Part shown: piece by piece, positions 3,805-25,122 of the stretch
Numbering within the stretch: the stretch's first letter is position 1
Layout of the letters: every line of letters begins with the position of its first letter
Origin: Clostridium sp. 1001270J_160509_D11
GTDB lineage: Bacteria; Bacillota; Clostridia; Peptostreptococcales; Peptostreptococcaceae
NCBI RefSeq assembly: GCF_015667935.1
Contig: NZ_JADPET010000002.1
Coordinates: 1-64,000, forward strand
Direction of reading: 5' to 3'
DNA: 64,000 nucleotides
Translations under genes and position numbers: made by a program
The notes under the pieces: model-generated
What the model saw: only the letters and a program-made list of their open reading frames with translations
Databases searched by the model: none
What the model was told of the DNA's origin: nothing

Positions 3805-4977
3805 ATGTTACTTGAGTTTTCCTGCAGCAATTTTAAGTCGATTAAGGAAAAGGTCACTTTTTCGGCTATTGCGACGGATGATAGCAAAAACGAGGAATTT
3901 TTAAGGAAGTTTGGCGATTTTAGGGTTTTGCATACGTCTGTGATTTATGGGCCAAATGGTTCGGGAAAGAGCAACCTTTTTAAGGCGATTGGATTTGTGA
4001 GGGATTTGGTGCTTAAAAGTTGTGAGAAAAAGGCTGGGGAGGTGTTGAAACAACCTCGTCACAAGATGGCATCTCAGGATGAAAAAAGCGAATTTAATAT
4101 ACAATTTATAATGGGCAATGTTAGATATGCTTATGGATTTGTGTTAAGAAACAATTTGGTGAGTGAGGAGTATTTATATTATTTTGCGCGTGAGCGCGAA
4201 GAAATTGTGAAAGTTTTTGAGAGAGAGGAAGGAGAAGTCTGTCTCGGTGAAAAATTTGAGGAAAATAAGGTGTTGTTGGAGATAACTAAAGACGAGCTTG
4301 GCGATAATAGGCTGTTGTTGTCTTGTATTGGAAATAAAAGTGGCATTTGTGAGATAAGTGATGCATTTTTGTTTTTTAAGTTACATCTTGTCATACATAA
4401 TATGGAGGTAAAAAGCGAAAGGGAAAACTGCATTAGGGCCATGATGGAAAATGAGGAGATGAGGAAGTTGATCATCTCTGTTTTTAACGAGTTGGACAGC
4501 GATATAAAGGATATTAGAGTTGAAGATGGGGACGAGGGGCCAAGGGTGAAAGTGGTTTACGATGAGTTTGAAACTGATTTGGCCTATGAGGAGTCGACGG
4601 GAATCAACAAATTGTTTGACCTCGTGCTCCCTATGGTGCAGAGTTTTGTAAATGGGAAGGTGATGATTGTGGACGAAATCGAGTTAAACCTTCACCGAAA
4701 TGTCTCTTATAAAATTATCAACTTATTCAACACCCATCTTCCGAACAACTCTGCCCAGCTTATTTTCACAAGCCACGATATAAGTCTGCTTAGCTTGAAT
4801 TTGTTTAGAAATGACCAGATTTGGTTTGCACAGCTGGGAAAAGATAGGGCGACTGAGTTGTATTCCCTTGTTGAGATTAAAAATATTAGAGCAGATGAAA
4901 ATATCGCCAAGGGGTATGTTATGGGAAGGTATGGAGCTGTTCCTATTTTTAAAAACAATGGCGGTGTTGTGAGATGA
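3805..4977 (+). CDS. AAA15-type (ABC/SMC-like) ATPase
   Basis: A 390-residue ATPase of the AAA_15/OLD-like group found in many defence systems. The N-terminus (SNFKSIKE) is the classic start of this group. Walker A is GPNGSGKS at residues 49-56, Walker B is VMIVDE with D290/E291, and the H-loop is TSHD with H324. There is no OLD-type Toprim nuclease domain fused to the C-terminus, so an effector must be supplied separately. The 3' end overlaps the next start codon by four bases (ATGA), indicating strict co-translation with the HEPN gene. Codon use becomes richer in G and C than in flanking genes, hinting at acquisition by transfer. The general ATPase call is firm; the defence role is inferred. 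Confidence 0.85.
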   Translation: MLLEFSCSNFKSIKEKVTFSAIATDDSKNEEFLRKFGDFRVLHTSVIYGPNGSGKSNLFKAIGFVRDLVLKSCEKKAGEVLKQPRHKMASQDEKSEFNIQFIMGNVRYAYGFVLRNNLVSEEYLYYFAREREEIVKVFEREEGEVCLGEKFEENKVLLEITKDELGDNRLLLSCIGNKSGICEISDAFLFFKLHLVIHNMEVKSERENCIRAMMENEEMRKLIISVFNELDSDIKDIRVEDGDEGPRVKVVYDEFETDLAYEESTGINKLFDLVLPMVQSFVNGKVMIVDEIELNLHRNVSYKIINLFNTHLPNNSAQLIFTSHDISLLSLNLFRNDQIWFAQLGKDRATELYSLVEIKNIRADENIAKGYVMGRYGAVPIFKNNGGVVR

Positions 4978-5693
4978 AGTCTGGTAAGCAGCGAAATTTA
5001 AATTTAACCCAAAGGAAGTCGGGGACAAGGGATAAAATCCAACCTGAAGTTGTGAAGTTTAGCTTAGATGAGATTAAAAAGCATTTTGAGGATAGCATCT
5101 CAGACATCGAGGAGCAGTTTAAGACGATTGACTTGTTGGAAAGCAAGGATAGGGAGAAAATAGACTATATCCTGCGCTCCCAAATTGTGTTTTTAGGTGG
5201 CTCGCTCGACTTTTATTTTCACGAAATTACTCAATTCGGCATAATGCAGATGTATGACGAAATATGGCAAGAGACAAAACCTTATAAAAATCTAAACATC
5301 AAGCTTGGGACGATTTTGGGCGTGTTAAAAGGAGAGAAGGACGACTCCTGGTTTATCGAGTTTATCAACTACGAATACAGCAAGATTTCGCTGATTTCTT
5401 ACGACTCGATTGAAAAGGCGATGAACATGATCGGGCTGCATATGTACCAAATTGCGAACAAAATCTACGGCGAGGAAATCGAGAGAAAGGAAAGAGTAAT
5501 CAAGCTGAAAGAAAGGATGAACCGCCTCTGCGAAAGACGAAACTGCATCGCCCACCAGTTTGATATGTTTCACGAAAATGCCGAGAAAAAGCCGATTCAT
5601 ATTAATACGGTGAGGGAGTTTATCGAGGATGCGAAGGAAATTGTTGATGTCGTTTATGAATTGATGCTGGAGCATGACGTCGTGAAGAGATAG
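4974..5693 (+). CDS. HEPN-domain protein (RiboL-PSP-like), probable RNase effector
   Basis: A 239-residue all-helical protein. Near the C-terminus, ERRNCIAHQ contains the R-x4-H motif of HEPN RNases (R189 to H194), in the RRNxIAH form typical of RiboL-PSP HEPN proteins. HEPN proteins in this setting usually cleave RNA and stop growth. No membrane segment is present. It overlaps the upstream ATPase gene by four bases. A pairing of ABC-like ATPase with HEPN nuclease resembles the logic of PrrC and RloC, where both parts are in one protein; here they are separate. The family call rests on the motif and helical pattern; RNase activity is inferred. Confidence 0.75.
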   Translation: MKSGKQRNLNLTQRKSGTRDKIQPEVVKFSLDEIKKHFEDSISDIEEQFKTIDLLESKDREKIDYILRSQIVFLGGSLDFYFHEITQFGIMQMYDEIWQETKPYKNLNIKLGTILGVLKGEKDDSWFIEFINYEYSKISLISYDSIEKAMNMIGLHMYQIANKIYGEEIERKERVIKLKERMNRLCERRNCIAHQFDMFHENAEKKPIHINTVREFIEDAKEIVDVVYELMLEHDVVKR

Positions 5694-7459: not shown

Positions 7460-8770
7460 TTAGCAAAAGCTGTCTTGTGTCCAGACAGGGGTATATCCAA
7501 AGTCTTTTTTAAGTTCGTATTCGCCTTGGGTGTAAAATCGCTTGCGGCTGTTGTCGAATGATAGTGAGAGTTTGTGTTTTACTATGCCGGTAATTCTGTT
7601 TTTTAGTATGTCTATGTAGGTTACTGACTTTTCGGTATCGCGGTATGCTTTGAATACGTAGTCGGCTAAGTTTGGGATTTCGCTGGCACCTGATATTTCA
7701 AACACGTGTGATTCTCTGTTCATAAGCGAGCTTTTGTTTGAATGGGCGACTAGGATTATGACGAGGTCGTATTTTTTAGCTAGGTTTTTCAATGCTTTGA
7801 CGGCGATTATTTGTTTTTCGTATTTGTCCGAACCGCTACATTCTAGAGTCATCAAGTTGTCGAGGATAAAAAATTTTACGTCTTTTCTTATGGCGAGATA
7901 TTCGATAACATTCGCCAAATTTATTTCGTCGGCTCTGGCGTCTTTTGAATATATAAAAAGTCGCTCTTTTGTCCAGTTTCTGATTAAATCAATCCCTTCT
8001 TGTGTGACTTTGGTGTATTTGCCAAAGCTGTTTGTGTAAGAGCCAAGATGTTCTGGATTTGCAACAGTTCGACAAAACCACTCGATCATCATCTGGTAAG
8101 TCAGCTCGCCGGAGTAGAGAAAGGAATTAAACCCGAGGCTTAGCGCATTTGCCAAGACTTGATTTAAAAAAGTACTCTTTCCGGAGCCGGGATTACCTGT
8201 CAAAATCGACAAAGTTCCGTAATTTAGCCCACTTCCAGTCGCCGAATCGAGACTCATAAACCCAGTCTGGATGGCGCCTGTGTTTTGGTTTTGGAGCGAA
8301 ATTGTGGATGCATCGATAAAGAGATTTTCGATGTCGCCATTGTCCAAAATCGTCGACTTCAAATCATCAGACACTTTTATAAGCTCGGAACTCTCCATAG
8401 TCTGGATAGTTTTTGTCGTTTGTGAAAGAAGTTCTTTGATGCTGCGTTTTACGGCGTACTCCTTGACAATTTTCATATAGAAGATGATGTTGTCGGTGGA
8501 TGCGACGATTGTCATCAAATCTGCCAAATATGACATACCGCCGATTTTTTCAAGCATACCTTCTTTTTTAAGCTCGTTGCCCAAGGTTATCGGGTCGATT
8601 TGGCTGTTGGAGTCGGACAGCTTTTTCATACATTTGTATATTATTGTGTGTTTTGGGACGAAGAAGTCGTCGGCACAAAAGTTGACGTCGTTGCCATGAG
8701 TTATGCTCTCAGGCTCGATTAAAATTGCGCCGAGAATATTTTGTTCGGCCTCAATATTGTAAAGTCCCAT
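7460..8770 (-). CDS. DnaB-like replicative helicase
   Basis: A 436-residue hexameric DNA helicase. The N-terminal domain (EAEQNILGAILIEPESI) is the DnaB helical collar. The RecA-like C-terminal domain has Walker A GNPGSGKST around residues 192-200, a Walker B-like FFILDNL, and VAHSNKSS in the position of the DnaB sensor histidine. It should unwind DNA at the fork of the element. A GGGGGAG site precedes the ATG. It lies 45 bases after the replisome organiser gene and 28 bases before ssb, consistent with one operon. Confidence 0.9.
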   Translation of the reverse strand: MGLYNIEAEQNILGAILIEPESITHGNDVNFCADDFFVPKHTIIYKCMKKLSDSNSQIDPITLGNELKKEGMLEKIGGMSYLADLMTIVASTDNIIFYMKIVKEYAVKRSIKELLSQTTKTIQTMESSELIKVSDDLKSTILDNGDIENLFIDASTISLQNQNTGAIQTGFMSLDSATGSGLNYGTLSILTGNPGSGKSTFLNQVLANALSLGFNSFLYSGELTYQMMIEWFCRTVANPEHLGSYTNSFGKYTKVTQEGIDLIRNWTKERLFIYSKDARADEINLANVIEYLAIRKDVKFFILDNLMTLECSGSDKYEKQIIAVKALKNLAKKYDLVIILVAHSNKSSLMNRESHVFEISGASEIPNLADYVFKAYRDTEKSVTYIDILKNRITGIVKHKLSLSFDNSRKRFYTQGEYELKKDFGYTPVWTQDSFC

Positions 8771-8815: not shown

Positions 8816-9763
8816 TTATATCCTAGTAAAATTGCCGTTTTCGTAGTTTTTGCGAGCGAGAATCTCGTCGTATTGTTTTCTCAAATCCCACGGACTAAGC
8901 ACCAAACTTGACCAAAATTCATCATCGAGATAAATCCACTTGATAAGCTCCGTAACCTCCCTGAAATCTCGATTGTCCTCATGTAAAATAAGCTCAAATG
9001 CACTTATCCAGTTTTTAAGGTCTGGAGTTTTGAAGTTGTGATTGTTTTTCTTGATCAGCTTGAACAAAAGCTGAGCAAGTAAAAACTCGGCACTAGATTC
9101 ATCGAATGTTTTTAATTTATTTGATTTATTTAATTGATCAATTATCTGTTCGTCATTTTCATCATGGGGATAAGGCATTTTGTCAAGGGGGTTGTGACTA
9201 AAATCTATGACGTTTGGATTTTTATCTAGGGGGTATTGACTGAAATCGACGATGTGTTTATCCATGTCAATAGGGTCGTGATTAAAATCATTACCTTCAT
9301 TATCTAAATCACTATCTTCGGGATTAAAATTATCGATTGCGTGATTTATATCATTGAGACTGTAGTTAAAATCATTAGGGTCGGGAATTGAATCGATTGA
9401 GTTTTGGGCTGAGGTTGCATTTTTCTTATCAGTTTGGAAACGGATTAGATGGACATAATTTTCGCCCAAAGCGTAATAAGAATAATTTCCGCCATAATGA
9501 AGAAGTTTTTTCTTTAAAATTTGTGAGTCGCACATTTTTTTCAGCCTTTTATAGACGGCGCTTTTTCCGATAGACATAATGCAGATATCTTCCACAATCT
9601 TTTCGTAAAAGACCCAATAATATTTTTCCTCATCAACAATAGCACAGCGCATATTGCCAGAGTCCTTAAAATCGACAAACCATCTTAATATAACAAGATC
9701 TATCAAATCTAGATTAAATTCGCACGCGGCCTTTTGGGAAAAGCCCATAATAGTATACTTCAT
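8816..9763 (-). CDS. phage-type replisome organiser (winged helix, DnaD-like)
   Basis: A 315-residue probable replication initiator or helicase-loading adaptor. Residues 1-100 form a winged-helix domain (LIDLVILRWFVDFKDSGNM, YYWVFYEKIVEDI, AVYKRLKKMCDSQILKKK) of the type seen in phage replisome organisers. The middle, about 125-215, is a low-complexity acidic D/N/P/H-rich spacer with repeated DFxxxPxD units. The C-terminal 90 residues are helical and end in a basic tail, the usual place for DNA or helicase contact. It immediately precedes the helicase gene. The exact family is uncertain; the role follows from the winged helix plus context. Confidence 0.75.
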   Translation of the reverse strand: MKYTIMGFSQKAACEFNLDLIDLVILRWFVDFKDSGNMRCAIVDEEKYYWVFYEKIVEDICIMSIGKSAVYKRLKKMCDSQILKKKLLHYGGNYSYYALGENYVHLIRFQTDKKNATSAQNSIDSIPDPNDFNYSLNDINHAIDNFNPEDSDLDNEGNDFNHDPIDMDKHIVDFSQYPLDKNPNVIDFSHNPLDKMPYPHDENDEQIIDQLNKSNKLKTFDESSAEFLLAQLLFKLIKKNNHNFKTPDLKNWISAFELILHEDNRDFREVTELIKWIYLDDEFWSSLVLSPWDLRKQYDEILARKNYENGNFTRI

Positions 9764-11424: not shown

Positions 11425-11695
11425 ACTTGTCTAAAGTACTAAATTTAAAAATATTCTATTTAATAATAAAAAATATTAAATTTATGGAAAAAAGTACCAA
11501 AAAAGATATATAATATAAAAATAAAGAGGAATAATAAGAATTATTAGTATTTAGGTAAATAATGGTACGTTTCCTATATTAAAGATATTAAATTTATTTT
11601 ATTAAAAGGAATTTGTATAAATTTATCGAATTTTTTCATATTGAGGTTTTAAAATATAAATTCAGCTCTTAATAAGAGTGAAAGGGGATATTTTG

Positions 11696-12559
11696 ATGAA
11701 TAAAAAAAAGGGTGTAATAGGTGTAATAATAGTAGTTATATGTATAGTTGCAGTCGTAGCAGGTTTTTATATTAATAAAAGCAAAAAGGAAGAGGCTAGA
11801 AACAAAGTAAAGGAAGATTATAATTTATCAGATGAAGAGATGAAAACACTAACAGACGAAGATATAAAGAAACTAGCAAATGATGAGGCAAAGGTAGAAG
11901 TAAAGGAAGTTAAAAAACCTACAAAAGACTCTTTAGATGTAGATAAAATAGCAGGGTTTGACTATCAAAATCAAAAAAAAGTAGGAGGACTTACACTACC
12001 ATATAAAGTAGAAAAAACAGACTTAGTAGTAGAAAATATAGGTCAATACACTGGCCAATTTATTGAAGATGGAAGCGATAAACCTGTAGCAAATGTATTA
12101 TCATTATTAGTAAAAAACAATTCAAACAAAGTAGTTCAATATGGAGAAATTAACATCAAAGTAAACGGAAACAAAAATGCAGTATTCAAAGTTACAAATT
12201 TACCACCAAAAACATCAACTTTAGTTATGGAGTCTACAGGAAAAATCGAATTTAACAAAGATGACAAGTACAAATATGTTGATTCAATACAAGCAAAACT
12301 AGACAATATGTCACTTATGAAAGACAAGGTACAAATTACAAAGCAAGAAGACGGAGTAATAGGTATTAAAAACGTATCAGGCAAGGATTTGGGAACTGTA
12401 TATGTTTACTATAAATACTTCCAAGAAGGGGGAGCTTATTTAGGCGGTATTACATATAGGGTTAAATTTGAAAATGTTAAAGCCGGTGCGAGTGTTGAGG
12501 AAAAGACAAGCCATTTTTCTAAGAATTCTAGTGAGATATTGATGGTGGATGCTTTTTAG
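11696..12559 (+). CDS. membrane-anchored extracellular protein of unknown function
   Basis: A 287-residue protein with an N-terminal signal anchor (VIGVIIVVICIVAVVAGFYI, residues about 7-26) and an extracellular part. Residues 27-80 are a charged helical spacer. From about 85 a beta-rich region contains two similar blocks built around VxxIGxYTGxFxEDGSxKPVANV and later strands ending EKTSHFSKN, resembling FxLYD-type Ig-like folds of surface proteins. The ATG at 11696 follows AAAGGGGAT; the in-frame GTG at 11678 lacks a site. It lies 175 bases ahead of the giant VWA gene with no terminator between them, so the two may be co-transcribed. Confidence 0.6.
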   Translation: MNKKKGVIGVIIVVICIVAVVAGFYINKSKKEEARNKVKEDYNLSDEEMKTLTDEDIKKLANDEAKVEVKEVKKPTKDSLDVDKIAGFDYQNQKKVGGLTLPYKVEKTDLVVENIGQYTGQFIEDGSDKPVANVLSLLVKNNSNKVVQYGEINIKVNGNKNAVFKVTNLPPKTSTLVMESTGKIEFNKDDKYKYVDSIQAKLDNMSLMKDKVQITKQEDGVIGIKNVSGKDLGTVYVYYKYFQEGGAYLGGITYRVKFENVKAGASVEEKTSHFSKNSSEILMVDAF

Positions 12560-12687: not shown

Positions 12688-12734
12688 CTTAGCCGTATTT
12701 AAGGTAAATTAACAAAATGAAAGGGGGACAAAAA

Positions 12735-15700
12735 ATGGACAAGATTTTTAAAAGAACAGTAAGTATTCTTGTTGCACTTGTTATGACGATTGTTATGATA
12801 CCTGCTAATGCTTTTGTATCCTTTGCTGATGAAGGTGGAAATATAAAATCGGGCAAAGTAACAGCTAATGCAGCAGAGAATTTAACTGCAGAAGGGGAAA
12901 TTACTGAAGCTAAGTATCAAAAAGTAAATAGTATAGATACACAATCCGATTATTTAATTGTTTATGAAAATGGTGGTACTTCAGTAGCATTAAATAATAA
13001 AGGTAATAGTAGTGATAATGGTACGAGTGTAACTATAACAGATGCTAAAGATGGATATTATAACATTACTAATGTTGATAGTAGTATGTTATGGAGTTTT
13101 AATAAAACAGTAACATCTAATAATACCACTAGCGAAGTTAAGATAACAAATAAAGCATCTAATCAGAATTTATCATTTAGTTCGAGAGATATTGATATTG
13201 GCAGTTCAGATAATACATTATATGTAGCGAATAGGGATGACAAATTTTCTATATATAATAAAGTTGATTATTATATAGATTATTCTTACTATTATTTAAA
13301 TTATAATAGTAAATTTATGGCAAGTAGAAATGGACAACAACCTCCTTCAGCAGGTAATTTAACAATATATAAACAAATATCACAACAAACTAAAAAAGTA
13401 ACTTATACATTAACTAAACCAACTAAATTAACTTATAGAGTAGGTCAAAGCCAAAATTTAAACGGGGGTAAAATAACAGTAAAGGATGAAAGTGGAAATC
13501 TTTTAAAAGAAGTAGATTTAAGTGATGAAGATGTTCAAATTACTGGATTTACTAGTGAGGCTGCAGGTACACCAGAAATAAAAGTTACATATGAAGGAAA
13601 AACTTTTAATTATTATATTACAGTAACTAACTCAACTGTAACTCCAGTTGATCCAAGTATAGATGATGATGCTCAATATCCTAATCAAGGTTCAGTAAAA
13701 GTTAATAAACAAGTTACTGAGGCAACAAAGGAAAATTTCGAAAATACAGGCCTTGCTAGATTAGAGCTTGGAGTAAAAGGTGTTCCAACTAAAAAAGGCG
13801 TAGATGCTGTATTAGTATTTGATAGATCAGCTAGTATGAATAAAACAGTATCTAATGGTAAGACTAGAACTCAAGTTGCAAAAGAAGCATCTATTAAATT
13901 TATAGAAAAAGTATTAGAAGATAATGCGGATGGAAGTTTTTCCAACAATCGTATTGCAATAGTTACTTTTAATGCTAATGCAACACGTTTAGTGGCATTA
14001 AGTGATAATGAGGCTGAACTTATAAAGGCTATAGAAGGTTTGAGTAATACAGTAAGTTCAGGAGATACCAATTATGATGCTGGTGTAATAGAAGCATCTA
14101 ATATTTTAAATAGTGCTAGAAACCAAAGTGGTTATAATAGAGAGCAAGCAGTATTGTTTTTTAGTGATGGGGCACCTCAAAATGGATATAATGATGTGAA
14201 CAAACCTACTAACAGTGATGGATATAATCATGATGCAACATATAATGAGTTAAAAAGTGCAGGTGCTTTTTTAAACAAACATAAATACTCTACACAAGTC
14301 AAAAATCTTCCAGCAACTATGTATACAGTTGGATTTGGATTGGCTGATTATAGTGGATTTACTAAATCTCAAATGGAAGAAATATTAAGAGATTATATGG
14401 CAACATCATCAGAAACTTTCTATTCTGTTCAAAGTGCAGGTGAATTAACAGATGCATTTGAAAAAATAGGAACAGCTATCAAAAAAGCCGGTACTAACGC
14501 GGTTGTAACAGATAAAATGGGTCCTGAATTTAATTTACAAATGGGTAAACAATACCCTTCAGGTGTAAAAAATGCAGCATTCCCAGAAGATTTTGATACA
14601 ACGATAAAAGTATCAAGCTATAAAGTTGACTCAGAAGGTAATAGAACAGGAAATCCAACCAATATAGAAACAGTTACATTTAGTAATGATGGTAAGACTG
14701 CAACTTCTGATAAATTACCAGACAAGAGTAATATTATAGAAAACAATAAAATTAAGGCTAAAAATTTTACTTATGATTTAAGTACAGAAACATTTACTTG
14801 GGATATAGGTGATATAACTCAAGATGAAATAGTATTAAGTTATCCAATATACTTAGAAAATTCGATGGAAGGAACTAGAGGAGCTGGAAACTACGATACT
14901 AATGAATCTGCGATTCTAAATTATACTAATATAAATGATAAGCCATGGCATAAAGACTTTGAGGTACCATCATTACCATGGAAGAGTGCAAATGTTAAAA
15001 TTGAATATTATTTAGTTAATGAAAATGGACAACCTATAAATTCAGCAGGAACAGTAGTTCCTTGGGAATATAGAGTTACATTATCTAATGAAACAAGACC
15101 GTTAGCAAAAGGTTCAAATTTAAATATAAAAGCTACAGATAATATACCTAAGGGATATGTTCTTCACAATAAAGATGCTTTCTATAAAATAGATAAAGTA
15201 GGCACAGAAAATGTAGTTAGAACATATTCAGAAAATGATAAGAGTACTCAAGTAACGGGAACTTCACCATATACAACATCATCTGTTGCATTTGGTGTAA
15301 TGACTACTACTGATTTAACTCCAGATACAATAGTTCTTGACTATGGTAAACCAGTTACATTTAATGTATTAGATAATGATGGATTAAAGGATATTACATT
15401 GAATGGTGTTGTTGAGCAAGAAGGAACTGCATTAGGTGTTAACTTAAATTCAGGAGTTTCTACTACACCTAATAATAAGTTTACTAATGAAGCAACTGAT
15501 GATTATGGAAAACTTGAAAAGAAAAATAATAATGGCGATGTAACTTATACATTATCTAAATATATGGATGGAATAGATAAATTCTATTATGAAGTTACAG
15601 GTAAAACTACTGGTCAAGATGGAAAAGAAGAAGATTTCTATAAATATTCATCAATAAGTGTAATACCAGCAACATCTGTTTATTATGAAGATAACTTCTC

Positions 15701-16949
15701 TAGTGGAACTACAAATAAGGATAAAACTACTAATGGAATAGTCTACAATGGTAAGGCATGGGAAAAAGTAACTAATGGAACAACAGATGGTAAAGAGGAA
15801 CAAGATGCTGAACAAGGTATAAATACTACTTATGGTCAAGATTCTTCATATGCAAACGACACTACATTTAGTTATGGTTCTGCACACGTAGTAACTGCCG
15901 AAAAAGGAACACCAGCAAGTGCGAAGTTTACATTTAAAGGTACCGGTTTTGAAATAATAGGTAGAACTGATAATAATACAGGAATGATGACTGTTAAGGT
16001 GTATGATTTAAAATCTAATACATTAGTTAGAAATATACCATGTAATACTGTTTATGAAGAACAAGATGGTGTATTATATCAAATACCTGTAATATCTGTT
16101 GATGGATTATCTTATGGACAATATAAAGTTATTATTACTGTAACTGGAACAACTGACCAAGATGGTATGAATCATAGCAGTACAGTATATATAGATGGTG
16201 TACGTATATTTAATCCAATAGATCCAAATGGCACAGATGCTACAGAGGCTAATAATAAATATAAAGAAGACAACGAAGCAAATCAAGTTGTTTATGAAAT
16301 AAGAAACTTATTATTAGACAAGAATAGTTTAACTGGTGGTACAGATGCTAATGGTATAGTATATGTTGATACTGAAGGAAATATAACAAATCCTACTACT
16401 TATAAAGATCTTGGTCCTAATAATGAAGTATACCTTAAAAAAGGTAACTCTATAGGATTTAAATTAAGATCTTCTCAACCAGCAGCTATAAAAATAGGAT
16501 TAAAAACTCCTAATGGTGAAGCCGGTGAAGTGACTGTAGGTTCTAGCAAAGATTCATCTGGAGATCCAATAGTATTAAATACAGCTACATCAATGTATTA
16601 TGATGTAACAAATAAAATTGTATTTGATGATAACAATGAAGCTTATGTGGTAATTACAAATACTGGTGATAATGACGCGATAGTTTCTTTAACAAAAATT
16701 AAATTTACATTTGAAAGTGAACCAGCAATTTCTCCACAATTAGTAGTTAATCAAAATGATGCAAAATATATATCAAATATGACATTGAGTAGAAATGGTG
16801 TAGAAGTTGATGATAACAATAAGGATAATACATCAGATGATAAATCAAACAGTGACACAACAGATAAACCAAATAATGATACAACAAATAATAATACAAG
16901 TGTGATAAATAAAGTTGTTAATTTCTTTAAAAATTTATTTAAAAAATAA
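12735..16949 (+). CDS. giant secreted von Willebrand factor A protein
   Basis: A 1404-residue extracellular protein. Residues 1-32 are a Sec signal peptide (ILVALVMTIVMIP, then AFVSFADE). About 200-300 hold an Ig-like domain (YTLTKPTKLTYRVGQSQNLN). A VWA domain spans about 355-610: the MIDAS motif D-R-S-A-S is at D363, TNYDAG supplies the MIDAS threonine, and FFSDGAP sits near residue 478. Beta-sandwich modules of surface adhesins follow. The low-complexity D/N/S/T-rich end is capped by VINKVVNFFKNLFKK, an amphipathic basic helix; there is no LPxTG motif or membrane anchor, so attachment is unclear. The ATG at 12735 follows AAGGGGG; the ATG at 12717 has no site. It lies 41 bases ahead of the precursor-peptide gene with no terminator between. 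Confidence 0.88.
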   Translation: MDKIFKRTVSILVALVMTIVMIPANAFVSFADEGGNIKSGKVTANAAENLTAEGEITEAKYQKVNSIDTQSDYLIVYENGGTSVALNNKGNSSDNGTSVTITDAKDGYYNITNVDSSMLWSFNKTVTSNNTTSEVKITNKASNQNLSFSSRDIDIGSSDNTLYVANRDDKFSIYNKVDYYIDYSYYYLNYNSKFMASRNGQQPPSAGNLTIYKQISQQTKKVTYTLTKPTKLTYRVGQSQNLNGGKITVKDESGNLLKEVDLSDEDVQITGFTSEAAGTPEIKVTYEGKTFNYYITVTNSTVTPVDPSIDDDAQYPNQGSVKVNKQVTEATKENFENTGLARLELGVKGVPTKKGVDAVLVFDRSASMNKTVSNGKTRTQVAKEASIKFIEKVLEDNADGSFSNNRIAIVTFNANATRLVALSDNEAELIKAIEGLSNTVSSGDTNYDAGVIEASNILNSARNQSGYNREQAVLFFSDGAPQNGYNDVNKPTNSDGYNHDATYNELKSAGAFLNKHKYSTQVKNLPATMYTVGFGLADYSGFTKSQMEEILRDYMATSSETFYSVQSAGELTDAFEKIGTAIKKAGTNAVVTDKMGPEFNLQMGKQYPSGVKNAAFPEDFDTTIKVSSYKVDSEGNRTGNPTNIETVTFSNDGKTATSDKLPDKSNIIENNKIKAKNFTYDLSTETFTWDIGDITQDEIVLSYPIYLENSMEGTRGAGNYDTNESAILNYTNINDKPWHKDFEVPSLPWKSANVKIEYYLVNENGQPINSAGTVVPWEYRVTLSNETRPLAKGSNLNIKATDNIPKGYVLHNKDAFYKIDKVGTENVVRTYSENDKSTQVTGTSPYTTSSVAFGVMTTTDLTPDTIVLDYGKPVTFNVLDNDGLKDITLNGVVEQEGTALGVNLNSGVSTTPNNKFTNEATDDYGKLEKKNNNGDVTYTLSKYMDGIDKFYYEVTGKTTGQDGKEEDFYKYSSISVIPATSVYYEDNFSSGTTNKDKTTNGIVYNGKAWEKVTNGTTDGKEEQDAEQGINTTYGQDSSYANDTTFSYGSAHVVTAEKGTPASAKFTFKGTGFEIIGRTDNNTGMMTVKVYDLKSNTLVRNIPCNTVYEEQDGVLYQIPVISVDGLSYGQYKVIITVTGTTDQDGMNHSSTVYIDGVRIFNPIDPNGTDATEANNKYKEDNEANQVVYEIRNLLLDKNSLTGGTDANGIVYVDTEGNITNPTTYKDLGPNNEVYLKKGNSIGFKLRSSQPAAIKIGLKTPNGEAGEVTVGSSKDSSGDPIVLNTATSMYYDVTNKIVFDDNNEAYVVITNTGDNDAIVSLTKIKFTFESEPAISPQLVVNQNDAKYISNMTLSRNGVEVDDNNKDNTSDDKSNSDTTDKPNNDTTNNNTSVINKVVNFFKNLFKK

Positions 16950-16990: not shown

Positions 16991-17275
16991 GTGAAAAAAG
17001 AATACGAGAAACCACAAATACTTGTGGAAGATTATAATATAACAGATTTATTAGCGACTAGTCCGTGTGAACAAAAAGTAAATTACGCAGATGGTTCAGT
17101 TTGCCATTCATGGTTTGAAGTTGATATTACTGATGATGAAGGAATGCCTGCAGGAGTAGGTTATTTATTTAATTCAGGAAATGCTGCATGCACTGGAGGA
17201 TATATGGATCAATTGGGTAGCTATAACGGTATATGTTATCATGGTCCAGAAAATAATAACTTCTTTACTTCATAG
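16991..17275 (+). CDS. RiPP precursor-like peptide
   Basis: A 94-residue small protein. The leader, KKEYEKPQILVEDYNITDLL followed by ATS, has the K-x-Y-x-K-P form common to peptides encoded beside PqqD-like and radical SAM/SPASM enzymes in Firmicutes. The C-terminal part, about 70 residues, is rich in Gly, Asn, Ser, Tyr and acidic residues and has four cysteines (SPCEQ, SVCHS, AACTG, GICYHG), possible sites for thioether or other modification. The GTG at 16991 has AAAGGAGG 11 bases upstream; a TTG-type start at 16967 lacks a site. A strong hairpin follows. The role is inferred from leader and neighbours; the product is unknown. Confidence 0.7.
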   Translation: MKKEYEKPQILVEDYNITDLLATSPCEQKVNYADGSVCHSWFEVDITDDEGMPAGVGYLFNSGNAACTGGYMDQLGSYNGICYHGPENNNFFTS

Positions 17276-17302
17276 AATTTTATTTAGTATATAAAAACTA
17301 AG

Positions 17303-17337
17303 ATATGGTCATACCTTTTGGTATGGCCATATTTTTC
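17303..17337 (+). terminator. strong hairpin between precursor and maturation genes
   Basis: ATATGGTCATACC (17303-17315), loop TTTT, GGTATGGCCATAT (17320-17332) with one G:T pair, then T residues. A partial terminator here would give much precursor and little enzyme mRNA, the usual ratio in RiPP operons. Confidence 0.9.
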
Positions 17338-17364
17338 ATAAAAGGTACATGGAGGAGTAAATAA

Positions 17365-18216
17365 ATGGGTTTCTATAAAATAGGAGATATATTTATAACT
17401 ATTGATTCGGAGATAAGATTGAACAAATATAGCATAATGGAAAAATTTAGATGCGATAATAATGTGGAAAAAGGAGTTATTTATAAAATTAGAATATCAG
17501 AGCCATATAGATTAGATGAAGAAAAATTAATTTATAAAAATGGTAATATTAGAATATATGATTATGGTGAAAAAATATTTAGGATATATGGTACAAATGA
17601 TTTATTTGGAGATTATGCTTGTGTAGAAATTAGAAGAGATAGTAGTGAGTATATATGCAATATATATAAAGGAAAAGAAAAAGCTTTTTATAGCACAAAA
17701 CAATTATTAGAATTATTGGTTATGGAAGATGTATTTTTAAAAAATAAAGGTATAATTTTACATTCATCAAATGTGATGTTTGAAAATAAAAGTGTACTTT
17801 TTACTGCTCCTTCAGGTACAGGAAAGTCTACTCAAGCTGGCTTATGGAATAAAGTATTAAATACAAAGATAATTAATGGTGATAAAACACTTATCAAAAA
17901 AATTGATGGCAAATATTTTGCAATGGGAATTCCATTTTGTGGTTCTTCAAAAATATGCGAAAATGAAAAATATCCTATTAGAATTATAGTATATTTAAAA
18001 CAAGGTAATTATAATAATATTAGAGAGATTTCAAAAAGTGAGTCTTATAAAAAAATAATAAGTGAAGTTACTATAAATATTTGGGATCAAGAATTTTTTA
18101 ATAAAGTATCAGATATAGTATTAGACTTAATAAATTCTGTTAAAATAATAGAATTTACGTGTTTACCAGATGAAGATGCTGTTAAAGTATTAAAAGATTA
18201 TATAGAAGGAACTTAA
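17365..18216 (+). CDS. HPr-kinase-like protein of a RiPP cluster
   Basis: A 283-residue protein with the C-terminal fold of HPr kinase/PEP carboxykinase. The P-loop APSGTGKSTQAGLW starts at residue 148 (K154/S155). Upstream, KGIILHSSNV matches the strand before the P-loop in HprK-like proteins of peptide clusters, and INGDKTLI fits the metal-binding region after it. The N-terminal 110 residues differ from true HprK and probably bind the substrate. Such proteins occur beside lasso-peptide and PqqD/radical-SAM peptide genes; in some lasso systems they phosphorylate the peptide. GGAGGAG precedes the ATG, and the next gene starts 18 bases after the stop. Confidence 0.78.
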   Translation: MGFYKIGDIFITIDSEIRLNKYSIMEKFRCDNNVEKGVIYKIRISEPYRLDEEKLIYKNGNIRIYDYGEKIFRIYGTNDLFGDYACVEIRRDSSEYICNIYKGKEKAFYSTKQLLELLVMEDVFLKNKGIILHSSNVMFENKSVLFTAPSGTGKSTQAGLWNKVLNTKIINGDKTLIKKIDGKYFAMGIPFCGSSKICENEKYPIRIIVYLKQGNYNNIREISKSESYKKIISEVTINIWDQEFFNKVSDIVLDLINSVKIIEFTCLPDEDAVKVLKDYIEGT

Positions 18217-18233
18217 GTTGGGGGATAAAATTT

Positions 18234-19346
18234 ATGAAAAATAAAGCAAAACAACCACAAATTACTGAATACTTATATAGAAAAGCTTGTTTAAAAAATA
18301 TACCTCTAAGTGGTACGTTTGAATTAACACCAAGATGCAATTTAAATTGTAAGATGTGTTATGTTAGAATGACAAAACAAGAAATAGAAGATAGTGGTTA
18401 TAAAGAAAAAACTTTAGATGAATGGTTAGAATTAGCAAGGCAATGTAAAGAGGAAGGAATGTTATTTCTTTTAATTACAGGTGGAGAGCCTTTTTTATTA
18501 AAAGATTTTAGGGTATTATATGAAGAATTATGTAAAATGGGATTTATAATAAAAATAAATTCAAATGGAACAATGATTGATGAAGATACAGTGGAATGGT
18601 TAAAACAAAACCCACCTGCAAAGATAAACTTAACTATATATGGGGCATCAAATGAAACGTATAATAGGTTATGTAACAATCCTAATGGATTTGATCAAGC
18701 TAAAAATGCAGTTAAATTGTTAAAGGAAGCTAATATACCACTAAGGGTTAATATGACATTAACAGAGTATAATAAAAATGATATAGAAGAGATATATAGA
18801 TTTGCAAAAGAAAATGATATAGAAGTACATACAACTAGTTATATATTTCCACCAGCTAGAAAATTTGAAGATAAGTTTGGAATGGGAGATAGGATGTCTG
18901 CTAAAGAGGCAGCTAATTATGAATTATATGGAGAACAGTTGAAACTTAGTGAAGAAGGGTACTTGCAAAAAGCTAATATAATAAATAGAGAAGTAGAAAA
19001 AATGAAAAATCAACCTAAAAGAGATGGAAGATTACCGATATCTTGCAGGGCTGGAAAATGTTCGTTTTGGATCAACTGGAAGGGTGAAATGACTGCTTGT
19101 GGAATGATGAATCACCCAAAATCATATCCATTTGACTTAGGTTTTAAAAATGCATGGCAAGAAGTAGTTGAAAAAACAAAAGAAATATTTTTGCCAGAAC
19201 CATGTACTACATGTAAATTTAAACCTATATGTCATGTGTGTCCAGCATCAACTTATACAGAAACAGGGGATTATGGTAAGAAGCCGGAATATATATGTAA
19301 AATGACAGAGTGTGAATATGAAGGGTTAATGAAAATTATAAAATAG
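18234..19346 (+). CDS. radical SAM/SPASM peptide-maturation enzyme
   Basis: A 370-residue enzyme that should reductively cleave S-adenosylmethionine and modify a peptide by radical chemistry. The [4Fe-4S]-SAM cluster motif is CNLNCKMC (C35, C39, C42). LITGGEPFLLKDF is the GGEP SAM-binding motif. The C-terminal SPASM region has CSFWINWKGEMTAC and CTTCKFKPICHVC plus a last ICKMTEC, enough ligands for auxiliary clusters. The N-terminus lacks a fused recognition domain; the PqqD-like gene 12 bases downstream supplies it in trans. Substrate is most likely the 94-residue peptide encoded at 16991; the type of crosslink cannot be read from sequence. Confidence 0.92.
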   Translation: MKNKAKQPQITEYLYRKACLKNIPLSGTFELTPRCNLNCKMCYVRMTKQEIEDSGYKEKTLDEWLELARQCKEEGMLFLLITGGEPFLLKDFRVLYEELCKMGFIIKINSNGTMIDEDTVEWLKQNPPAKINLTIYGASNETYNRLCNNPNGFDQAKNAVKLLKEANIPLRVNMTLTEYNKNDIEEIYRFAKENDIEVHTTSYIFPPARKFEDKFGMGDRMSAKEAANYELYGEQLKLSEEGYLQKANIINREVEKMKNQPKRDGRLPISCRAGKCSFWINWKGEMTACGMMNHPKSYPFDLGFKNAWQEVVEKTKEIFLPEPCTTCKFKPICHVCPASTYTETGDYGKKPEYICKMTECEYEGLMKIIK

Positions 19347-19358
19347 GGGGATAATCAA

Positions 19359-19613
19359 ATGATTTTAAAGAAAAAATTTGTAAAAAGGGAAATAATGGGC
19401 GATTGTATACTAGTACCAATCGGTCAGAATGAATTTAATGGTCTGATAACACTAAATAATATGGCTTCATTTATTTGGGATAATATTGAATCATCTAAGG
19501 ATGAAGAAGATTTATTACAAAAGATTTTAGACGAATACGAAGTGGAAAGGGAAGTAGCAAATGCTGATTTGGATGAATTTTTACAAACTTTAAAAGATGC
19601 AGATATAATATAA
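19359..19613 (+). CDS. PqqD-like RiPP recognition element
   Basis: An 84-residue PqqD family protein. It has the two-strand plus helices plan: FVKREIMGDCILVPI, FNGLITLNNMASFIWDNIE and a final helix VANADLDEFLQTLKDADII. These proteins bind the precursor leader and present it to the radical SAM enzyme. GGGGGAT precedes the ATG, and a strong terminator follows the stop, so this closes the maturation operon. Length and pattern are typical for standalone members. Confidence 0.9.
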   Translation: MILKKKFVKREIMGDCILVPIGQNEFNGLITLNNMASFIWDNIESSKDEEDLLQKILDEYEVEREVANADLDEFLQTLKDADII

Positions 19614-19789: not shown

Positions 19790-21550
19790 ATGGAATTTAT
19801 AAAAAAACTCATAAAAAAAATCAAAGATGGAATGCTACAGGAAATGTACGAAGAGACAAAATGGATGTACACCTATGCGAAAAAATACAAATTTCAAATT
19901 GTATTTTACATATGTCTGGGGATAATGACGACGCTGATGGGGCTGGCGTCGAGTGTCGGGTCGAAGTATTTAATCGATGCTGTTACAGGGCAGGATACGG
20001 GCAACATCGCCTTGATTGCGATTTTTATAGTATCTATGGGGCTTTTTAGTATCGGGATTAATGCTGTGACAACTATGATTTCAGCAAAAATTAATATAAA
20101 AGTAAATAATGAAATTCAAGCTGAGGTATATGACAAAATCCTCGTGGCTGACTGGATATCTATGAAGGAGTTTCACAGTGGTGATTTGCTAAATCGTCTA
20201 AATGGCGATGTGAACACGGTGGCGTCTAGTATTTTGAGCTGGATACCGAGTTTGATTACGCGTGGGGTTCAGTTTTTGGGGATTCTTGCGATAATTCTTT
20301 ATTATGATCCGACGATGGCGGTGATTGCGCTTGGTAGTGCGCCTGTGATGGTGATTGTGTCAAAGACTTTGATGAAAAAGATGAGGGATTATAACAAGAG
20401 GATGAGAGAAGTTTCGAGTGAGGTTATGTCTTTTAATGAGGAGTCTTTTCAAAATATACAATCGGTCAAGGCGTTTGATTTGGTGGAGTTTTTCAGCAAG
20501 AGGCTGAGAAATGTGCAACAAAATTATAAAGATGTCTACTTGGATTACAATAAATTTTCTGTCTATACATCGTCTTTTATGTCGGTTGTGGGGATGTTTG
20601 TGGCTTATGCTTGTTTTGGGTGGGGTGTTTACCGCCTTTGGACAGGTCACATCACGTTTGGGACAATGACTTTGTTTGTCCAATTATCGAGCCAATTATC
20701 GTCATCATTCAAATCGCTTGTGAGCCTTGTTCCGTCTGCAATAAGCGCGACGACGTCTGCTGGCAGGATTATGGAGTTTTTCAAAATTAAAAACGAGACA
20801 AAGCTAGACGACGAAAAGGTGAGATTAATACAAAACAACACACAAGGCAAGGGGCTTAGTATCGAGCTTGAGGATGTTAATTTTAGTTACAATAACACTA
20901 AAACTGTATTTAAAAATGCAAATGTAGTGGCAAATCCAGGCGAGATTGTGGCTCTTGTTGGTCCTTCTGGTGAAGGTAAAACTACAATGGTGAGACTTCT
21001 TTTGGGGCTTATTAATACTAAATCTGGAGGTGCATTTATAAAAGATATAAACGGTATAAAATGCAAAATTTCAGCATCTACAAGGCGATTTTTCTCTTAT
21101 GTTCCACAGGGAAATACGATTTTTTCTGGAACAATAGCAGACAATATGCGCATGGTAAAACCAAATGCAACAGATGAAGAAATTATAGAAGCCTTAAAAA
21201 CAGCTTGTGCATATGACTTTGTAAAAAAACTTCCAAAAGGTATAAACTCCAAAGTAGGTGAGAGGGGTGGCAGATTTTCAGAAGGACAAGCACAACGTAT
21301 CTCCATTGCAAGGGCGCTTTTAAGAAAATCACCGATACTTTTACTAGACGAGGCGACTTCTGCATTAGACGTATTTACAGAAAGACAAGTCCTTCGCAAT
21401 ATAATGAATAGTGAATATGAAAGAACTTGCATCGTTACAACCCACCGCCCGAGCGTACTAACAATGTGTGACAGAGTTTATAGAATAGATAATGGAGATG
21501 TCAGCGATATTGATGAAAGAGAAGTAAATAGGCTTATAAAGGATTTTTAG
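19790..21550 (+). CDS. ABC exporter (fused permease and ATPase)
   Basis: A 586-residue half-transporter working as a dimer. Residues about 35-315 form the six-helix exporter domain; about 360-580 the ATPase: Walker A GPSGEGKTT near 391, Q-loop YVPQGN, a variant signature FSEGQAQR, Walker B ILLLDEATSALD and H-loop TTHR. There is no N-terminal C39 peptidase, so a leader would have to be cut by another protease. It is the nearest exporter to the RiPP genes and in the same direction, but behind a terminator. Base use shifts inside the gene: roughly 19910-20860 is richer in G and C than the rest, which suggests recombination. Confidence 0.9.
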   Translation: MEFIKKLIKKIKDGMLQEMYEETKWMYTYAKKYKFQIVFYICLGIMTTLMGLASSVGSKYLIDAVTGQDTGNIALIAIFIVSMGLFSIGINAVTTMISAKINIKVNNEIQAEVYDKILVADWISMKEFHSGDLLNRLNGDVNTVASSILSWIPSLITRGVQFLGILAIILYYDPTMAVIALGSAPVMVIVSKTLMKKMRDYNKRMREVSSEVMSFNEESFQNIQSVKAFDLVEFFSKRLRNVQQNYKDVYLDYNKFSVYTSSFMSVVGMFVAYACFGWGVYRLWTGHITFGTMTLFVQLSSQLSSSFKSLVSLVPSAISATTSAGRIMEFFKIKNETKLDDEKVRLIQNNTQGKGLSIELEDVNFSYNNTKTVFKNANVVANPGEIVALVGPSGEGKTTMVRLLLGLINTKSGGAFIKDINGIKCKISASTRRFFSYVPQGNTIFSGTIADNMRMVKPNATDEEIIEALKTACAYDFVKKLPKGINSKVGERGGRFSEGQAQRISIARALLRKSPILLLDEATSALDVFTERQVLRNIMNSEYERTCIVTTHRPSVLTMCDRVYRIDNGDVSDIDEREVNRLIKDF

Positions 21551-21585: not shown

Positions 21586-22476
21586 ATGGGTAATAAAAAA
21601 ACTAAGAAAAAACTAAAGATAGTATTGTGTATAATTTGTGCACTAATAATAATAGCAATTTCAGTTTGCTATTATCTAGTATACATTTCGTACAACCACC
21701 TAACAGTAAATTCTTACGATATAAATAGCGACAAAATAAATTCTTCAGTAAAATTCGTAGTGATAGGTGATTTACACGACAACACTTTTAAAGACGATGA
21801 CAGAGAATTATTAAAACAAATAAAAGAACAGAATCCAGATTTTATAATAGCAGATGGTGATATTTTAAACGACGATTCTGAAAACAGCGACATTGCAATG
21901 AGTTTTATAAAAAGACTTGTAAAGATAGCTCCTGTTTATTATGCTTTGGGAAATCATGAGCTAGAATATATGGAAAATCAACATTCTGAAAAATTATTAG
22001 ACGAAATAAAAAGCACAGGGGCAACTTTATTAGAAATGGAGTACAAAGATATAAAGGTAAATGGTGTCGATATTCGTATTGGTGGAATGTATGGATATGC
22101 GTTTGATCCAAATGGAACAACAAAGCGTGATGATATGGGAGATGGAATATATGACTTTTTGACAGAATTTGAAGATACGTCGAGTTATAAAATTATGATG
22201 AGTCACAGACCAGATAGTTTTGTATTTGGTGAAGCATCAAAAGCTTGGGATATTGACTTAGTTGTAAGTTCACATGACCATGGTGGACAAGTTATAGTAC
22301 CGTTTTTAGGAGGGCTTTATGGCGGTGATCAAGGCTACTTCCCAGAATACATCCATGGTCTTTATAAAAAGGACAATATGCAATTATTAATTACAAGTGG
22401 ACTTGGATCAAATACTCAGAAGCTACCTCGTTTTAATAACGTTCCAGAGATTATGGTAGTGAATTTAAAGAAATAA
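21586..22476 (+). CDS. membrane-anchored metallophosphoesterase (YkuE-like)
   Basis: A 296-residue phosphoesterase with one N-terminal membrane helix (IVLCIICALIIIAISVCYYL) and an outside calcineurin-like domain. All metal motifs are present: VIGDLHDN, ADGDIL, LGNHE, MSHRP and SSHDHGGQV. It probably hydrolyses a lipid or surface phosphate. It starts 35 bases after the exporter stop and has a GGGGG site, so it is likely co-transcribed with the exporter. A link to RiPP export is possible but unproven. Confidence 0.88.
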   Translation: MGNKKTKKKLKIVLCIICALIIIAISVCYYLVYISYNHLTVNSYDINSDKINSSVKFVVIGDLHDNTFKDDDRELLKQIKEQNPDFIIADGDILNDDSENSDIAMSFIKRLVKIAPVYYALGNHELEYMENQHSEKLLDEIKSTGATLLEMEYKDIKVNGVDIRIGGMYGYAFDPNGTTKRDDMGDGIYDFLTEFEDTSSYKIMMSHRPDSFVFGEASKAWDIDLVVSSHDHGGQVIVPFLGGLYGGDQGYFPEYIHGLYKKDNMQLLITSGLGSNTQKLPRFNNVPEIMVVNLKK

Positions 22477-23883: not shown

Positions 23884-25122
23884 ATGGAGAAGTTTAATTT
23901 ACAGTTTTTAGACTTATTAAAGTCATCATTAAATAATGGTACTTATGAAGGGGGATATATTGATTCACAAGATTTGAAACAGATTTATCGTTTATCTGAA
24001 ATTCATCACGTTTTGCCTATGATATACAGTGCTTTATATAATCAAGAGTGTTTTAAAAATGCTGATGAAGAGTTTAAAAGAATGTTTAAGCAAGTTGCTC
24101 TTAGGTTAGTTGTATCTCAAATTCAACGCAGCAATAGGTTTTTAGAACTTTATAAAATTTTACAGAAAGAAAATATAGAAACAATTATATTTAAAGGTAT
24201 AATTTTTAGAAATATGTACAATAATCCAGATGATAGGATGTCGTCGGATGAAGATATATTAGTAAAGCAAGAAGACTACGAAAAGATTAAAGAAATTTTA
24301 TGTAATGAGGGGCTTGAATTTATTGAAAAAGAGGGAAATGAGTGTGCGTATTTCTGTAAAAAAACAGGCCTTTGTATAGAAGTCAGTACAAGCCTTTTTC
24401 CTGTTGAATCAAAGGCTTATGGACATCTAAATAAAGTATTTGAAAATATATTTGAAAATAGTATAAATATAAACATAGACGGCATTGATATCAAAACTTT
24501 ATCACATGAGCAACATCTTATATATATTGTATTTCACAATATGAAACACTTTTTACATGGAGGTTTCGGCATAAGGCAAGTTGCCGATTTCTCCAAATAC
24601 ATAGAAACTTATAATCAATTTATAAATTGGGAAAAGTTCTGGAGTGATTTAAAAATCTTAAATTACGATACTTTTGCACTAAATTTAATCGATATAAGTT
24701 TAAAATATCTCGGATTTGATTATACTAAAGCTATATATCCTGAAGGGGTTAGAGATTTTAACATAATTATAAATTCTAAGGACTACTACATAAATAGCTA
24801 TGATTTAATTAACGACATATTAAATGCAGGAGTCTTTGGCGGAAGTACAAAAGAGAGAAAACATACAGCGCTCATGACTTTAAATGCAGTCGAAGGGCAA
24901 AATAACACAAATAGATTTAAGGCGATATTCCCAAATGTAGACTATTTAAAGGGAAGTTATACATATTTACAAAAACATCCGATTCTTCTTCCTATCGCTT
25001 GGACACAAAGAATTTTATCTTATTTAAAGAAAAATAAAAACAACACAACATCTTATATAAATACTATGGAATTGGGAAAACAGAGAATAGAGCTATTAAA
25101 AGAATATAAAATCATAAAATAA
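23884..25122 (+). CDS. nucleotidyltransferase family protein (NTP_transf_5-like)
   Basis: A 412-residue cytosolic protein. The key block FKGIIFRNMYNNPDDRMSSD, followed by EDILV, is the minimal nucleotidyltransferase core: G-x-x-F/R, then the SDEDIL metal-binding aspartates. It is typical of PF14907 proteins found in lasso-peptide and surface-glycan loci. The C-terminal half (HNMKHFLHGGFGIRQVADF) matches the family's helical extension. GGGGG precedes the ATG. It diverges from the LCP gene. It could tailor the RiPP made 5 kb away or a surface polymer; both fit the neighbours. Confidence 0.8.
   Translation: MEKFNLQFLDLLKSSLNNGTYEGGYIDSQDLKQIYRLSEIHHVLPMIYSALYNQECFKNADEEFKRMFKQVALRLVVSQIQRSNRFLELYKILQKENIETIIFKGIIFRNMYNNPDDRMSSDEDILVKQEDYEKIKEILCNEGLEFIEKEGNECAYFCKKTGLCIEVSTSLFPVESKAYGHLNKVFENIFENSININIDGIDIKTLSHEQHLIYIVFHNMKHFLHGGFGIRQVADFSKYIETYNQFINWEKFWSDLKILNYDTFALNLIDISLKYLGFDYTKAIYPEGVRDFNIIINSKDYYINSYDLINDILNAGVFGGSTKERKHTALMTLNAVEGQNNTNRFKAIFPNVDYLKGSYTYLQKHPILLPIAWTQRILSYLKKNKNNTTSYINTMELGKQRIELLKEYKIIK

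Follow-up and report, generated by a model that had tools for sequence, protein, structure and literature searches.

A predicted radical SAM/SPASM peptide locus in Clostridium that may supply a phosphorylated partner to a large surface protein

What becomes of a small peptide encoded between the gene for a large secreted protein and a set of peptide-modifying genes, and what might its product be for? The question is raised by a 64,000-nucleotide stretch of DNA from Clostridium sp. 1001270J_160509_D11 (the window, meaning the whole stretch analysed). A 94-residue reading frame with a GTG start (16991-17275), which alignment of relatives identifies as a precursor of a ribosomally synthesized and post-translationally modified peptide (RiPP), is followed on the same forward strand by genes for an HprK-like putative peptide kinase (17365-18216), a radical S-adenosylmethionine (SAM)/SPASM enzyme that may modify the peptide core (18234-19346), a PqqD-type RiPP recognition element (RRE) predicted to bind the leader (19359-19613) and then an ATP-binding cassette (ABC) exporter (19790-21550). 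Each of the first four is preceded by what appears by eye to be a plausible ribosome-binding site, that of the precursor being AAAGGAGGGG, and the four-gene set proposed in a first-pass annotation of the letters alone is confirmed in the sequence. The extent given there to the operon was too short, as it covered neither the exporter nor the upstream gene (12717-16949, forward strand), which encodes a 1410-residue secreted protein and ends 41 bases before the precursor begins. With moderate confidence we favour the reading that the locus makes a RiPP that PqqD recognises and the radical SAM enzyme modifies in its cysteine-rich core, and that is phosphorylated on its terminal serine, exported, and active together with this dedicated surface protein.

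The precursor begins V/M-KKEYEKPQI, with cysteines at residues 26, 38, 67 and 82. Residues 1 to about 22 form the leader (Y5-x-x-P8, E13, A22), and the core behind it carries a CYH motif and ends in FFTS. Among 36 aligned sequences of the window's type, Y5, P8, C26 and C82 are invariant, while K2, E13, A22, C38, C67 and the terminal serine are kept in at least 90%, so that these relatives have in common the pattern K-x-Y-x-K-P...E...IA-x-C, four cysteines and a C-terminal serine. More generally the leader reads K-x-[YFW]-x-x-P...E...[IVL]-A-x(1-3)-C, and a profile of the leader alone detects a precursor in most radical SAM loci. Several core types stand behind this leader: the window type, with four cysteines, C-[YFW] near the end and [FWY]-x-S at the extreme C-terminus; a long type (AACGDSG...TAKS); a CWG type; and short types with two cysteines. 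In 78 of 86 precursors, drawn from all core types, the first cysteine lies 18-21 residues past the leader aromatic. A conserved leader and a variable core beside modifying enzymes are thus both present, as in RiPPs.

Using the radical SAM protein as query, in one scan of named genomes and in genome searches, and reading the neighbours from the fetched DNA, we gathered some 110 radical SAM loci whose enzymes are 26-56% identical to that of the window. The enzyme was present in 8 of the 297 genomes searched from the order, in 12 of 391 from the class, in 33 of 299 from the family to which genome G578 belongs, which we judge to be Lachnospiraceae, and in 22 of 250 from that of genome G330. HprK and PqqD homologues stand at nearly all of these loci and the same ABC exporter at many. 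Since dozens of other genomes have the same gene set together with a precursor bearing this leader, the locus is more than a chance arrangement. The precursor itself is a poor query, its single sequence having matched the window alone in 71 genomes of the family, and profiles were needed. A precursor profile run on 140 genomes gave 13 matches, ten of them beside a radical SAM gene, a linkage that is supportive but partly circular as the profile was built from radical SAM-linked loci; the others comprise one that ends in serine and adjoins PqqD where its contig stops, one beside HprK and a partner gene, and one alone. The condition under which the first-pass annotation would have withdrawn its proposal, that homologues of the peptide occur mostly without radical SAM and PqqD genes, is therefore not what we find. 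We note a precursor-like frame (L283; G1007:C29 47709-47936) whose neighbourhood holds none of the enzymes and whose genome has several clusters; it may possibly be an orphan substrate modified in trans. We also note that each cluster of a short-core clade (L115, L117, L119, L235) carries two or three small precursors, with CTGxC-like motifs, and that a congener (G015; L106, L107) has at least two clusters with different core types, one of them with two precursors ending in TNAS and KNPS.

The secreted protein is a further part of this picture. It has a signal peptide, a VWA domain (residues 365-485, 13809-14171, with DxSxS at 369), Ig-like repeats and a C-terminal module, with domain matches to VWA_2 (7.9e-16), GBS104-like_Ig (9.3e-12) and Big_3 (8e-9). 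We considered the VWA domain as the conserved feature of such partners and rejected it, a profile of that region matching only 12 partner open reading frames; Blast showed that the part common to the loci is a stretch of about 355 residues at the C-terminal end (approximately residues 976-1336). The N-terminal part varies: members of the window's clade have VWA there, L217 has a catalytic GH20 domain and L114 a PA14-like one. One partner ends in a dockerin. The C-terminal module lies near 30 of the 36 window-type precursors (three of the six others are at contig edges) and near 1 of 56 precursors of other types (p 4e-17), a split that is not fully independent because the window core type is partly defined by its C-terminal motif. 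The gene bearing the module ends within 200 bases, and usually within 40, upstream of the precursor frame in 27 loci. Across 250 genomes of one family, in which the module was found in 20 and the enzyme in 22, both occur in 19, the module alone in 1, the enzyme alone in 3 and neither in 227 (p 2e-24). Distances between modules also correlate with distances between cores beyond what radical SAM distances account for (partial r 0.38, permutation p 0.001). On a tree of the enzyme, where that of the window groups with those of Clostridium celatum, a Dorea metagenome-assembled genome and a congener (G014) in an inner order without strong support, the window core type is clustered but does not form a single clade, the starred branches forcing at least six changes; the association of core type with partner has therefore outlasted at least two gains or losses.

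The module (15645-16709) matches no Pfam family. AlphaFold2 predicts two jelly rolls (predicted local distance difference test, pLDDT, 81; predicted TM-score, pTM, 0.81), and alignment of the predicted structure with VIA matched it to the C-terminal part of 3nqh at Z 13.9 (124 aligned residues, 3.0 A) and to carbohydrate-binding module (CBM) chains of families CBM36 and CBM6 at Z about 10.6. A Foldseek list was set aside, as generic jelly rolls lead it with low TM-scores, and the domain-level Z-scores were used. The predicted model thus has a CBM-like jelly-roll fold, and we consider the module CBM-like in this sense, a fold of this kind not being in itself a demonstration of function. Separately, GH20 hexosaminidase genes or domains occur within several clusters (L013 3619-5922, L015 2687-5929, and L217 654-5711, where GH20 is fused to the partner module), and a GH2 gene follows the cluster in L014; these enzymes appear to link such clusters to glycan breakdown. 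About a third of the partners lack LPxTG and end in a short amphipathic stretch of aromatic and basic residues (VVNFFKNLFKK and IKNIFGRWF, for example), as in the window (16880-16946) and in partners of L010, L105, L210, L225, L244, L248 and L251; this tail is perhaps an anchor.

Could the peptide instead be a free antimicrobial of the sactipeptide or ranthipeptide kind, with thioethers, and the upstream protein a co-transcribed colonisation factor that never touches it? Such a role would fit the enzyme's closest solved relative, the sactisynthase SkfB, the weak match of two of the 36 precursors to the StsA sactipeptide model, and the hypervariability of the cassette between two species whose flanks are conserved, as is seen for bacteriocins. 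It accounts poorly for a module nearly confined to enzyme-bearing genomes (19 of 20), encoded immediately 5' of the precursor at 27 loci from several families, and all but missing (1 of 56) from clusters of other core types that have the same enzyme family; no immunity gene stands out either. We therefore regard a free antimicrobial as unlikely, though it deserves to be kept in mind, and think it most likely that the peptide is a dedicated partner of a surface protein whose CBM-like module is restricted to such clusters. Because of this dedicated secreted partner, which the first-pass annotation missed, the likely biology shifts from a free modified peptide to one acting in concert with a large surface protein.

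We wrote down the prediction of a terminal serine after the first loci and tested it on loci fetched later, using HprK-linked precursors defined by the leader alone and clustered at 50% identity. Serine is the last residue in 30 of 37 of these clusters, against 16 of 438 among the remaining proteins encoded at these loci, and its frequency over the last 20 positions is 8%. Where the partner gene immediately precedes the precursor, the precursor ends in serine in 26 cases of 27 and in threonine in the other. A count on window-type precursors was dropped as circular, that type being partly defined by its ending, in favour of the leader-only and partner-adjacent sets. The serine is retained behind unrelated endings (FTS, TAKS, PNAS, LERS, KYIS). 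The short-core clade described above, in which the kinase is present and the terminal serine absent, is an exception to the rule.

The HprK-like assignment of the earlier annotation is weak by Pfam but proves correct: a profile of 31 homologues matches HPr kinase structures in the PDB at 4e-4, the alignment pairing His133, the P-loop and Asp173, and His133, GxGK(S/T), Trp161 and Asp173 are invariant among the homologues. HprK homologues of lasso peptide clusters phosphorylate a C-terminal serine, those of the paeninodin type having a loose specificity that requires just this residue (PMC8498205). We infer that the window's enzyme would likewise phosphorylate the C-terminal serine of the precursor, which would give an orphan kinase family a concrete substrate rule. 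The kinase and the radical SAM enzyme are naturally fused in L011 (5971-7923), as a single frame of 650 residues, an arrangement in favour of a common substrate.

It is also possible that the HprK-like protein spends ATP elsewhere, on another residue, in nucleotidylation or in regulation, and that the terminal serine is kept for recognition by the exporter or a protease or the like. BsfK, a lasso kinase that requires the first aspartate of its D-D pair, acts on Ser3 and not at the C-terminus (PMC10368454); nearly all homologues of the window's protein have N-G-D in place of D-D, and several kinase-linked precursors lack the serine. On the other hand His133, the P-loop lysine and the second aspartate are invariant, and a terminal serine across unrelated endings is what the loose specificity of paeninodin-type kinases would lead one to expect. 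Another role for the protein is accordingly improbable in our estimation, and phosphorylation of the terminal serine remains the reading we prefer.

The chemistry of the core is addressed by the radical SAM/SPASM enzyme. Its assignment stands, with PF04055 at 3.7e-29, the cluster motif C35-x3-C39-x2-C42 and, by reading, SPASM cysteines at 276, 289, 324, 327, 333, 336 and 355/360, the last group spaced CX2CX5CX2C. The closest solved structure is SkfB (2e-19), and because of this, together with the weak StsA matches, a thioether from at least one cysteine seems the most plausible kind of modification; the first cysteine after the leader would be the likeliest site because it is the sole core feature common to all core types. 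PADLOC viperin matches arise through the shared domain only, and no defence role was drawn from them. The call of a stand-alone PqqD is likewise upheld (PF05402, 4e-17): the protein matches lasso_PqqD_Bac at 3.3e-8, below cut-off, and among solved structures is closest to the lasso RRE TbiB1 (1.5e-4). Lasso leaders bear a YxxPxL motif read by a PqqD-type RRE (PMC10368454), and StsC, the RRE of a sactipeptide system, reads WxxP of StsA (PMC12710340).

A carbon-carbon, ether or other link might be made instead at the aromatic residue after the fourth cysteine (C-[YFW]) or at the terminal aromatic, with the cysteines serving as extracellular disulfides. An aromatic follows the fourth cysteine in nearly all precursors, the position two residues ahead of the terminal serine is aromatic or bulky, and the NCBIfam scores of the enzyme are scattered over many chemistries with none near cut-off. 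What the core types have in common, however, is the leader with a cysteine just after it and not the C-Y motif, and we find links at the aromatics doubtful by comparison with a thioether. That the 94 residues are simply a secreted or structural protein without modification, lying there by chance, is suggested by a core that is long for a RiPP, and is very improbable given the conserved leader, the PqqD gene, the lack of a signal peptide and the recurrence of the frame in many genera with the same enzymes.

We therefore propose the following scheme, in which each reaction and the physical partnership are inferred from what is seen in the sequence: the genes and their linkage, the leader, the cysteines, the terminal serine, and the partner module with its co-occurrence. 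PqqD would bind the YxxP leader of the precursor and present the peptide to the radical SAM/SPASM enzyme, which would modify the cysteine-bearing core, probably by thioether formation. The HprK-like enzyme would phosphorylate the C-terminal serine, the NTP_transf_5 protein encoded nearby may then decorate the terminal phosphate, and the ABC protein would export the product. Outside the cell the peptide may act with the upstream-encoded protein as a ligand, a cofactor or an attached group. The first of these steps draw on knowledge of the families and on comparative sequence, the partnership on co-occurrence. RiPP identity, leader binding by PqqD, crosslinking and phosphorylation, all suggested by the first-pass annotation, have become likelier with the conservation of the leader, four cysteines and C-terminal serine and with the known action of lasso kinases on such a serine. 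More tentatively, and we would not call it likely, the cross-linked, phosphoserine-tagged peptide might dock on or attach to the tandem jelly-roll module, forming a two-part, fast-diversifying surface recognition system of gut Firmicutes. A contact between the phosphoserine and the metal ion-dependent adhesion site of the VWA domain was considered and found unsupported, most partners having no detected VWA. Several points weigh against our overall proposal. Co-occurrence of partner and precursor does not demonstrate physical contact, and the comparison of 36 with 56 precursors has the dependence noted above. Roughly one in five of the precursors defined by their leader lack a terminal serine despite a kinase (these belong chiefly to the short-core clade), few true kinase-free clusters served as controls for that residue, and the first aspartate of the D-D pair of lasso kinases and HprK is glycine in 86% of the kinase family. 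No leader protease was found, and the AlphaFold2 model of the precursor is of low confidence (pLDDT 62), so that no fold was read from it.

The arrangement of the locus bears on its expression and evolution. A terminator-like hairpin (ATATGGTCATACC-TTTT-GGTATGGCCATAT followed by a T-run; 17303-17332, forward strand) has a folding energy of -20.2 kcal/mol against a shuffled mean of -4.8; comparable hairpins, with energies well below shuffled, stand behind most window-type precursors, and in the window's clade the arms have ATGGTCAT/ATGGCCAT in common. The partner and precursor genes lie 5' of the hairpin and the enzyme genes 3' of it, and for this reason partner and precursor are probably the strongly expressed part, with the enzymes behind a partial stop. 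In comparison with the congener G014, the flanks are 80-90% identical (upstream gene 90%, exporter 88%, phosphoesterase 80%), whereas the cassette is far less so (partner 44%, precursor 35%, kinase 35%, enzyme 50%, PqqD 69%), which indicates that the cassette diverges or is swapped as a block.

Upstream of the partner, a membrane-anchored protein of no assigned function and no Pfam family over cut-off (11678-12559, forward strand) is the gene 90% identical to its counterpart at the equivalent locus of G014; with a homologue in G015 too, it is a genus-conserved neighbour and not clearly a member of the system. The exporter has membrane and ATPase domains (PF00664 from residue 38, and PF00005), and the domain scan detected no N-terminal peptidase domain. 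Downstream on the same strand are two recurrent neighbours, a calcineurin-like phosphoesterase (21586-22476; PF00149, 1.7e-17), also found beside clusters in L011, L107, L108, L110 and L111, and, beyond one gene on the opposite strand, the NTP_transf_5 nucleotidyltransferase (23884-25122; PF14907, 4.5e-50). The latter occurs within 8 kb of about 28 radical SAM loci and is a candidate tailoring enzyme for a phosphorylated peptide end. Elsewhere in the window, an AAA_21 ATPase gene that matches PADLOC AbiLi (1.5e-81) overlaps a HEPN (RiboL-PSP) gene (3805-5693), probably forming an anti-phage abortive infection pair, and a DnaB-like helicase gene on the reverse strand (7460-8770) adjoins an unassigned gene (8816-9763), possibly the remains of a mobile element.

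This is a real RiPP locus and, as far as our literature search reached, an undescribed variant of known chemistry; no paper describing the combination was found, in a search that mostly did not cover subscription journals. The novelty lies in the dedicated surface partner and the terminal-serine rule. If our reading is right, radical SAM modification and terminal-serine phosphorylation are joined to a large surface protein whose modules resemble sugar-binding ones, two things that were not known to go together, in a combination with a named enzyme set that is spread over many gut-type Firmicutes genera and gives a RiPP a role at the cell surface instead of as an antibiotic.

Of known systems, phosphorylated lasso peptides such as paeninodin and pseudomycoidin resemble the window in their YxxP leader and stand-alone PqqD-type RRE, their HprK-like kinase, C-terminal serine and ABC exporter, and in a nearby NTP_transf_5-type nucleotidyltransferase. 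The window differs in having a radical SAM/SPASM enzyme, a four-cysteine core of about 70 residues, an NGD kinase and a large secreted partner, and a lasso peptide is rejected since neither a cyclase (asparagine synthase-like), whose absence had been remarked on in the first-pass annotation, nor a B2 protease is among the 14 neighbouring proteins scanned (11678-33622). The StsA/StsB/StsC sactipeptides share with it a radical SAM/SPASM enzyme, an RRE, a [YW]xxP leader and a cysteine-bearing core, as well as the weak StsA matches; the window has in addition a kinase, a terminal serine, a long core and the secreted partner, and its enzyme reaches 61.8 bits against the NCBIfam StsB model (NF045574), whose cut-off is 625, so that this family too is set aside. 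SynChlorMet has the same three kinds of enzyme (the HprK-like ScmC, the PqqD-like ScmD and the radical SAM proteins ScmE and ScmF), but no partner protein is known there and the scores fall well short of the cut-offs (ScmC 29.4 of 125 bits, ScmD 18.1 of 100, ScmE 87.7 of 400). Lastly, surface proteins that bind glycans or act on mucins through CBMs likewise combine jelly rolls, here predicted ones, with VWA, PA14, GH20 or dockerin domains in one polypeptide; the module of the window differs from theirs in belonging to no Pfam family and in being tied to RiPP clusters.

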